Part shown: one piece after another, positions 32,349 through 35,490 of the stretch
Numbering within the stretch: the first letter of the stretch is position 1
Layout: the number at the start of each line of letters is the position of its first letter
Origin: Methanococcoides methylutens MM1
Lineage (GTDB): Archaea > Halobacteriota > Methanosarcinia > Methanosarcinales > Methanosarcinaceae
Assembly: GCF_000970325.1 (NCBI RefSeq)
Contig: NZ_CP009518.1
Coordinates: 124,001 to 188,000 of the forward strand
Direction of reading: 5' to 3'
DNA: 64,000 nucleotides
Notes under the pieces: generated by a model
Database searches by the model: none
Seen by the model: the letters and a program-made list of their open reading frames with translations, nothing else
What the model was told of the DNA's origin: nothing
Translations under genes and position numbers: made by a program

Positions 32349-33704
32349 TCATGTATTGATCGCTTTGAAAGCGCTGTACTCCTTTGCAAGCATTACAAAG
32401 GTCACCAGGAATGAGAGTCCATCGGATATCGGGAATGCTATCCATACTCCGTATAGTTGGAAGAACTGTGGCAGTATCAGGACCAGGGGTATCAGGAAAA
32501 GGACCTGCCTGCTTATGGAAAGGAAAAATGCGGGCCTGGCCTTTCCCAGTGTCTGGTAAATGGATGCACCAACTATCTGGAATCCCACGAAAGGCAATGC
32601 TAGCACCATGATACGTGTGGCAGATCTGCCTGCATCTATCAATTGCTGGTCCGTGGTAAAGATGCTGAACAACTGGGATGGGAAGAGGAACAGCAGCATG
32701 AAACCCGCAATTGATATTACGGTGGTGGCCTTGATGGCAAGGGCAGTTGAGCTGACGACCCTTTCGAAGTTCTTTGCACCGTAATTGAAACCTACGATTG
32801 GCTGAAGTCCCTGTACGATGCCTATCATAGGCATGAATGTGAACATGAACAGGCGGTTCACAACACCAAAGACTGCTATGTGTATGTCTCCGCCATAGAT
32901 TGCCAGTGCATTGTTTATCACAATGACCATCAGGCTTCCGGATGCGCTTCTTGCAAATGAGGAGGCTCCAATGGTAATTGTTTCCACGAAAACATCCGGA
33001 TGAGGCATGAGGTCGCTGACATGGAAGTTCAGGCTGCTCATTCCGCTGTTAAAATAATGTACCAGGTAGATAGCGCTGACAGCTTGTGATATCACGGTGG
33101 CAATGGCAGCGCCTTTTATTCCCATGTCGAGTCCGAAAATAAATATGGGGTCAAGTATGATGTTCAGCCCTGCAGAAATGACCATTGTCAGCATGGCAAC
33201 CTTTGCGTTCCCTTCTGCACGGACGATGTTGTTGACAGTCATTGAGAATGCAAAAACAAGGGTGCCATAAAGGATTATTCTCGTATAGTCATATGCAAAG
33301 GGAAGGATGGTCTCAGTAGCACCGAAGAGTTTCAGCAATGGCACGATGTAAATGCTTCCAAATATTGTTACAAGTGTGCTTAGTATCAATATTGTGGAGA
33401 TCGCATTTCCCAGGGCAATATCGGCACGCCTGTAGTCCTTTGCACCAATACTTCTCGATATTATGGAAGCACTTCCGATACCAATGGTAAGGGCTACTCC
33501 CATTATTATCATCTGGATCGGGAATGCTATCGTAATTCCTGCTATTCCCTGAACACTTTCCGGTCCCAGTGCCCTTCCGACAAATATGGTGTCCACAAGG
33601 TTGTATAGTGCCTGTACTACCATTCCTATGGTCGCAGGCACTGAAAGTTTGAATAGGACCTTTGAGATGCTCTCTTCTCCAAGCATCCGGGCTCTGGTGT
33701 TCAT
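32349..33704 (-). CDS. MATE-family multidrug/cation exporter
   Basis: A 451-residue protein with twelve predicted membrane helices and two homologous halves. The first helix region SVPATIGMVVQALYNLVDTIFVGRALG is typical of the DinF/NorM-like MATE branch, and GIVQGLQPIVGFNYGAK begins the second half's loop. It is expected to export organic cations by sodium or proton antiport. GAGG lies 8 nt before ATG 33704. It starts 63 nt after the end of the TAG-containing gene on the same strand, so the two may be co-transcribed. Confidence 0.88.
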   Translation of the reverse strand: MNTRARMLGEESISKVLFKLSVPATIGMVVQALYNLVDTIFVGRALGPESVQGIAGITIAFPIQMIIMGVALTIGIGSASIISRSIGAKDYRRADIALGNAISTILILSTLVTIFGSIYIVPLLKLFGATETILPFAYDYTRIILYGTLVFAFSMTVNNIVRAEGNAKVAMLTMVISAGLNIILDPIFIFGLDMGIKGAAIATVISQAVSAIYLVHYFNSGMSSLNFHVSDLMPHPDVFVETITIGASSFARSASGSLMVIVINNALAIYGGDIHIAVFGVVNRLFMFTFMPMIGIVQGLQPIVGFNYGAKNFERVVSSTALAIKATTVISIAGFMLLFLFPSQLFSIFTTDQQLIDAGRSATRIMVLALPFVGFQIVGASIYQTLGKARPAFFLSISRQVLFLIPLVLILPQFFQLYGVWIAFPISDGLSFLVTFVMLAKEYSAFKAINT

Positions 33705-33767: not shown

Positions 33768-34301
33768 TTATCTCTTTTTACTGATGTTGTAGTATCGTTC
33801 ATCTATCGATATTGGTATTGCTTCGTCAGGCCTTGTTTCTTTGTAGAGGAAAACAAGTGCCATGGAGGACCATTCGATCTTTATTCTTCTGCTGTTGCCT
33901 TTTCCAATAGCCATCTTGCCTGATATCATTATCTCATCTGCAAGGTCTAGTCCAAAAGCCCTTGCATTTGCAGGCTCCATGTCCGGGAACTCCTGCAGGA
34001 ATATGGTGGTAATAAATCTGCTTATGCTTTCTCTTGAACACCTTGCTGTGTTTGTATCACATGAACTGATGTATATGTTCAGGCCGTTGGTATCAGTCCA
34101 GTAATGGGCATTTGTCCGTAGTGATAAGCTCTCAGAGGTCTCTAAAAGACCTTCAGATCTCTATTGTGCATCCATTATCTTTAGTTTCCACATATTTCCA
34201 AGGTTTGAATACCCGTTGAAAGAGCTCAAAAAGTCTATCTGCTGATCTCTGTCATCATATCTTGTTACAGGCATGGAGCTTGGAGTGTATATATCATTCA
34301 T
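33768..34301 (-). CDS. Unrecognised protein with in-frame TAG: candidate pyrrolysine-containing gene (or nonsense pseudogene)
   Basis: The frame starts at ATG 34301, with GAGG 7 nt upstream, and runs 46 codons to TAG at 34163-34161. It then stays open in the same frame for 130 more codons to TAA at 33768, giving 177 residues if TAG is read. Between the TAG and the first later ATG (33980) there are 60 codons with no ATG, GTG or TTG, so the downstream part could not easily be a separate gene. In Methanosarcinaceae TAG can be read as pyrrolysine. A 6-bp hairpin (34136-34152) begins 8 nt after the TAG. The protein is soluble and matches no family I know; the C-terminal half has NSRRIKIEW strands and WTDTNGLNIYIS. 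A recent nonsense mutation is the main alternative. Confidence 0.6.
34136..34152 (-). other. Hairpin just downstream of the in-frame TAG
   Basis: On the minus strand AGGTCT-TTTAG-AGACCT forms a perfect 6-bp stem with a 5-nt loop, starting 8 nt after the TAG. It resembles in position the PYLIS stem-loop reported after the UAG of mtmB. Its role is unproven, and PYLIS itself is not strictly required in vivo. Confidence 0.4.
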
Positions 34302-34463
34302 TTTTCAGCCTCTTGAGTTCCGGGATGTTCTTCAATCGCTTGTGATATCTTGCGAACTCGCCGTTTTTCCGTTTTTAATAACTTCCAAACATTTTTATTT
34401 GGACATTATTATCTAATTAATAGCTATTTTTCCAAGGGTATATATTAGTGATTTAGTTATTTT

Positions 34464-34545: not shown

Positions 34546-35490
34546 ATGGCTGAAAAAACAGTTATTTCCACAAATCAGTTGAGCTATCCGAAAAACAACA
34601 ACAACAACAACAACAACAAGAGCAGTTTCCTGGAATTGCCGGATATTTCAGGGCTGTGGCCGACACTGCATCTTTTGAACAGTTCCACTCTGGTCTCAGT
34701 ATCCGGGGCCTTGAGAATATATCTTGCTTTCCTTCTGCTTCAGATGCAATTCAATATTCTCTCCTGTATAGCAGGTGGTCTTGTTGTGTATGCTGTGTAC
34801 ACCCTGGACCGTGCGCTTGATTCTGAGGAAGATGCTGTTAACAGGTCCGAGCTTAAGGGTGCAAGAACTAAAATAGTACTCTTTGTTTGCTTACTTGCAT
34901 TTCTGGTAGGTGCATATCTTCTATTCCTTGACGGACTTCTTCTCCTGGCATTTCTTCCTCTCATTACCGGTTACCTTTACAGTAAAGGGCTGAAGGTCGG
35001 TAAATTCCATTTGAAACTAAAAGGCGGCCTTGGCGTCAAGAATCTTGTTGTTGGCACAACCTGGGGTGCATTCATTGCCGGTATTGCAGGCTGGTATGCT
35101 GAGAGCATTTTCCCGGTGATTGCAGTTTTCCTTTTCTTTGGCATCAAACTTTTCGTAAATTCATCTGTCTATGATTTCAAGGATATCAAAGGTGATGCCC
35201 TTGCAGGAATCAAAACTCTGCCCGTAAGCCTTGGTCCGCAGAGAACTCGTGACCTGCTTTTGAGTATGCATCTTTTCTCTCATTCCCTTCTGGGACTTTT
35301 GATACTTTCCGGGACGATCGCCCACGAACCTATGATTTTGGTCTATAGTTTCATTGCAGGGATGGTATGCATCTACAGGTTCACGGTTCCTACGGAAAAT
35401 GAGTCAAAGAGCAGGATGCACAAACGTCTCTTCGTAGTGGATGGTGAATCCAGTATGATAGTTGGCCTGAGGGCATTTACAGGGATGTAA
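34546..35490 (+). CDS. UbiA-family prenyltransferase-like membrane protein
   Basis: A 314-residue integral membrane protein with about eight helices. Two aspartate-rich segments match the UbiA pattern: YTLDRALDSEED (Asp88, Asp92, Asp96) and VYDFKDIKGD (Asp210, Asp213, Asp217), which bind magnesium and prenyl diphosphate. It probably attaches an isoprenoid chain to an unknown acceptor. Its N-terminus holds eight consecutive Asn (17-24) encoded by pure AAC repeats. Its 3' end overlaps the convergent regulator gene by 14 nt. The promoter carries two 12-bp direct repeats. Confidence 0.8.
   Translation: MAEKTVISTNQLSYPKNNNNNNNNKSSFLELPDISGLWPTLHLLNSSTLVSVSGALRIYLAFLLLQMQFNILSCIAGGLVVYAVYTLDRALDSEEDAVNRSELKGARTKIVLFVCLLAFLVGAYLLFLDGLLLLAFLPLITGYLYSKGLKVGKFHLKLKGGLGVKNLVVGTTWGAFIAGIAGWYAESIFPVIAVFLFFGIKLFVNSSVYDFKDIKGDALAGIKTLPVSLGPQRTRDLLLSMHLFSHSLLGLLILSGTIAHEPMILVYSFIAGMVCIYRFTVPTENESKSRMHKRLFVVDGESSMIVGLRAFTGM
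34594..34617 (+). repeat. (AAC)8 trinucleotide microsatellite
   Basis: Eight perfect AAC units encode Asn17-24 of the UbiA-like protein. Length changes in whole units would keep the frame. Confidence 0.9.

Follow-up and report, generated by a model that had tools for sequence, protein, structure and literature searches.

In the methylamine methyltransferases MtmB, MtbB and MttB, the pyrrolysine encoded by UAG is believed to function in the transfer of methyl groups. The position of this amber codon is conserved within each of the three classes (PMC2933860). The gene described here lies in a stretch of 64,000 nucleotides of the Methanococcoides methylutens MM1 genome, hereafter called the window. 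Its UAG would be decoded by the same tRNA-Pyl/PylS pair, but the position of its amber codon is variable and falls in a predicted disordered loop. Beyond the methylamine methyltransferases, pyrrolysine is known or predicted in few proteins (transposases and Thg1; 2021 review, PMC8211752). Thg1 of Methanosarcina acetivorans has one in-frame amber codon that is absent from its relatives and inessential for activity (PMC2933860), and that is treated as a case of neutral evolution in the passage of PMC8211752 citing Heinemann et al. 2009.

The gene in the window resembles Thg1 in being a non-methyltransferase gene with a single in-frame amber codon, and resembles a neutral gain of this type in that its TAG site varies, with various sense codons in the orthologues. 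It differs in belonging to another, uncharacterised family, in having its amber codon in two species with a second amber codon elsewhere in a third, and in that its pyrrolysine is predicted from sequence. UAG-interrupted archaeal reading frames, including a cluster of histidine kinases, are predicted in PMC3639795; there too readthrough was predicted from conservation, and a histidine kinase gene with a TAG is also present in the window genome. Its candidates are named by cluster, and the present family is not mentioned in the part consulted. Neutral gain of UAG is of a known kind; what appears to be new is its occurrence in this family, and that the family gained a TAG twice independently.

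An open reading frame with one in-frame TAG

The gene reads from its ATG through 46 sense codons to the TAG at codon 47 and then through 130 further sense codons to a TAA (Table 1). The preliminary description had this layout exact to the base, together with the GAGG upstream of the start, and it had also correctly given 60 start-less codons after the TAG, the next in-frame ATG, GTG or TTG being codon 108. The segment CTCAAGAGG(C/G)TGAA before the ATG is kept in 6/6 Methanococcoides carriers of the gene.

Table 1. Features of the locus, with positions in the window
Feature	Position	Strand	Remarks
177-codon gene with one in-frame TAG	33768..34301	-	ATG at 34301, TAA ending at 33768; gap-free orthologues in 5 other Methanococcoides
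In-frame TAG, codon 47, read as sense (putative pyrrolysine)	34161..34163	-	TAG also in G008; selection downstream
GAGG, Shine-Dalgarno-like motif	34309..34312	-	7 nt upstream of the start codon
Predicted folded core, residues 66-174	33780..34106	-	AlphaFold2; all downstream of the TAG
Codons 48-107 without ATG, GTG or TTG, under purifying selection	33981..34160	-	
MATE-family transporter gene	32349..33704	-	PF01554, E 4e-56; 63 nt downstream
UbiA-family prenyltransferase gene, divergent	34546..35490	+	PF01040, E 3.5e-17

With stops at about 4.4% per codon, a 130-codon open run after a given TAG has a chance of about 0.3%. Because the genome holds thousands of TAG triplets, each with this chance, the length of the open frame by itself is weak evidence for readthrough. 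The codon usage of the gene (mean log-odds of 0.02 upstream of the TAG and 0.09 downstream of it) exceeds that of the other five frames, giving a weak coding-like signal. Since both of these lines are weak, the case for readthrough rests on the comparison of species. RNA structure after the TAG does not go beyond that of shuffled sequences (z of -0.18 and -1.26); no such structure is known to be needed for readthrough.

Orthologues and amber codons in Methanococcoides

Eleven Methanococcoides genomes were compared, counting that of the window (G000). The gene is present in six of them, always with 177 codons that align without gaps. The proteins of the window genome and of G008 share 66% identity. 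Codon 47 is TAG in these two genomes, and TCT, TCT, TCC and TTC in the other four carriers. Codon 21 is TAG in G001, CAG in its sister G007 and in three others, and CAT in G005. Conserved residues flank the TAG, with W38 and K39 before it and Y67, W68, G73, L74 and W144 after it. Of the possible reading frames, only the one running through the TAG stays open in all six carriers, and none of these species has a frame-disrupting change beyond the TAG. The preliminary description had looked to homologues for conservation of the TAG or its replacement by sense codons, with conserved residues on both sides; the TAG is kept in the sister species G008 and sense codons occur elsewhere, encoding Ser or Phe and not the Lys, Gln or Trp that had been anticipated. 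The frame disruption in relatives that it named as counter-evidence does not occur in the six species. Sequencing error as the source of TAG47 was ruled out because an independent species shares it.

The window genome and G008 are sisters with a support of 1.000 in both gene trees (MATE and pylB). The pylB tree also pairs G001 with G007 (support of 0.992); G007 is absent from the MATE tree. The simplest history would comprise two independent gains of TAG, one at codon 47 and one at codon 21. The gene is missing in the five other Methanococcoides, in which both flanking genes are kept, and a long, fully supported branch separates these species from the six carriers. From its absence in five congeners, the gene is dispensable to the genus.

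Protein family and predicted structure

Profile searches of 393 genomes sampled from the phylum found distant relatives in three further genera, all Methanosarcinaceae, and none elsewhere. The protein has no match in Pfam or NCBIfam, including the methyltransferase families, and no sequence match among solved structures; PHROGs gave scattered weak matches only, and no relatives were found on viral contigs.

The AlphaFold2 model, built from 21 sequences, has a mean pLDDT of 68. Its predicted core consists, in order, of a beta hairpin, two helices, a strand, a short helix and a beta hairpin, with most elements at pLDDT values of about 85-94 and weaker stretches at residues 81-90 and 121-140. A further strand is predicted at residues 39-42, before the core. 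Fold searches with the model gave matches too weak for use (Foldseek best E of about 1; VIA-align best Z of 4.3). As the whole predicted core (residues 66-174) is encoded downstream of the TAG, the fold in this model depends on readthrough. Residue 47 itself lies within a low-confidence stretch (45-62), and the alignment of the relatives has gaps around it; it is thus predicted to sit in a disordered, length-variable loop, and its identity is probably immaterial.

Longer relatives in genus g7, along with one paralogue in genus g4, have an apparent signal peptide, judged by eye, and hydrophobic helices. The secreted-looking relatives L048, L049 and L083-L088, from other Methanosarcinaceae, combine an apparent signal peptide with two hydrophobic helices rich in small residues, placed between beta hairpins. 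In the g4 relatives L050, L051 and L058, a TAG stands exactly at the usual C-terminus of the family and is followed by open extensions; in this genus, UAG may still be a stop.

Pyrrolysine machinery and UAG use in the genome

The window genome (2,394,636 bases, a single contig) has a complete pylTSBCD cluster, with tRNA-Pyl (anticodon CTA) followed by pylS, pylB, pylC and pylD, as the preliminary description had proposed to confirm; pylT and pylB are present in 11/11 Methanococcoides genomes. PylC escapes the Pfam N-terminal model through a limitation of the model itself; the protein has a strong match to the NCBIfam PylC model.

Among non-overlapping reading frames of at least 150 amino acids in 324 kb of the genome, 4 of 232 have TAG as their stop, where the proportion of TAG in all stop triplets would predict 40.6 (P of about 1e-14). 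Two of these four are readthrough genes, for a dimethylamine methyltransferase (L028, PF09505) and a histidine kinase, and a third is pylB. These counts fit a genome in which UAG is mainly a sense codon. Scanning the same 324 kb for TAG-bridged genes by codon usage was not discriminating by itself: under a strict filter not even the known methyltransferase gene was recovered, and a looser one gave 3, 3 and 7 bridges for TAG, TGA and TAA.

The histidine kinase gene (L023:13792-16506, minus strand; G000:C1 near 1264058) encodes 905 residues with PAS/GAF domains and has one TAG, inside the HATPase domain; it is likely a second non-methyltransferase pyrrolysine protein of this genome. The pylB gene (L011:7490-8557; L090-L100) ends in TAG in 11/11 Methanococcoides, one base before the likely start of pylC, and reading through it would lengthen the gene by 42 codons that overlap pylC. 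A pylB gene ending in TAG has already been published for some Methanosarcinaceae (PMC2933860). The persistence of this TAG may be a sign that pyrrolysine synthesis is under feedback.

The rarity of UAG as a terminator bears on the possibility that the gene is a pyrrolysine- or methylamine-dependent switch, with inefficient readthrough giving mostly the 46-residue product and some full-length protein. Although TAG47 has been kept in two species since their split, as such a switch would have it, the 46-residue part is weakly conserved and has little predicted fold, and no switch is conserved across the carriers, the TAG being elsewhere in G001 and absent in three other species. We consider regulated readthrough improbable.

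Selection after the TAG

Between the window genome and G008, codons 48-177 differ at 81 nucleotides, distributed over the three codon positions as 21/15/45, with a dN/dS of 0.28. They contain 37 amino-acid changes against about 52 expected under neutrality, a simulated P of about 0.0003 that is the floor of 3000 neutral simulations. The start-less codons 48-107 alone are also under purifying selection (P of about 0.002). Since the TAG is most likely older than the split of the two species, selection most likely acted with the TAG present. Taken together, the shared 177-codon frame and the purifying selection after the TAG raise the readthrough signal, by comparison of the species, far beyond chance.

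These values weigh against a pseudogene whose protein is truncated by the TAG and whose remainder is decaying. Decay would agree with the loss of the whole gene in five related species and with its fast evolution, above all in the first 36 codons. However, despite the 81 differences neither carrier of TAG47 has acquired a second stop, an indel or a frameshift, changes are in excess at third positions, and the contexts of the stop and of the ribosome site are intact, which makes a pseudogene highly improbable. Hardly credible at all is a separate downstream gene translated by reinitiation or from a non-standard start, for which G001 (with TAG21) offers the ATG at codon 37 as a possible start, but which in the window would begin at codon 108, losing the hairpin and the first helix, and would leave the conserved W38-K39 strand, common to other genera, before the TAG.

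As the first 36 codons are under little constraint, the start of the gene itself could be the ATG at codon 37, still before TAG47. The case of TAG21 in G001 would then be weakened.

Genomic neighbourhood

The gap to the MATE gene, re-measured in the window, agrees with the preliminary description, and it is 62-63 nt where measured, making co-transcription of the two genes plausible. Conservation as a neighbour extends more widely for the divergent UbiA gene, which stands head-to-head with the gene in three genera, including most of the genomes inspected in g4 and g5; the window copy was identified by its Pfam match and those of the other genera by evident similarity. From the recurrence of this arrangement in g4 and g5, the locus is old and vertically kept. 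A role tied to prenyl-lipid or membrane physiology, hinted at by the UbiA neighbour, is speculation. Near its start (window 34600-34640), the UbiA gene contains 8 Asn codons in a row, a poly-Asn stretch that is shorter or interrupted in relatives and possibly a replication-slippage tract.

Discussion

With high probability, the locus is a real coding gene in which UAG47 is read by tRNA-Pyl as a functionally neutral pyrrolysine, a second UAG having been gained separately in G001. Readthrough of the UAG is well supported by the comparison of the carriers. The inserted residue would almost surely be pyrrolysine, as the only UAG-decoding tRNA found in the genome is tRNA-Pyl, and readthrough at codon 47 would be efficient. 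The Ser and Phe replacements, with the position of the site in a predicted disordered loop, make neutral use of UAG the most likely. The preliminary description, which saw a non-methyltransferase gene using UAG as sense, is thus borne out as to readthrough and probably as to the residue; a function dependent on pyrrolysine is unlikely.

We propose a single origin for UAG47: a serine-type codon in the disordered, length-variable loop, where pyrrolysine would be tolerated, mutated in the ancestor shared by the window species and G008. UAG47 would be decoded by tRNA-Pyl(CUA), and the organism has nearly ceased to use UAG as a terminator. At codon 21, G001 would have gained a second UAG in a separate event.

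A 2025 paper in Science reportedly described an archaeal genetic code that assigns every TAG codon to pyrrolysine; if that code covers Methanococcoides, the gene is an instance of it. Standard annotation may miss the gene or label it a pseudogene. A TAG and sense codons at one site, together with a second independent TAG, make a clean natural experiment on UAG as an ordinary sense codon. In the lineage of the window, UAG may well be a full sense codon genome-wide; the independent gains in this family would then record its drift into ordinary proteins in which the pyrrolysine side chain has no role.
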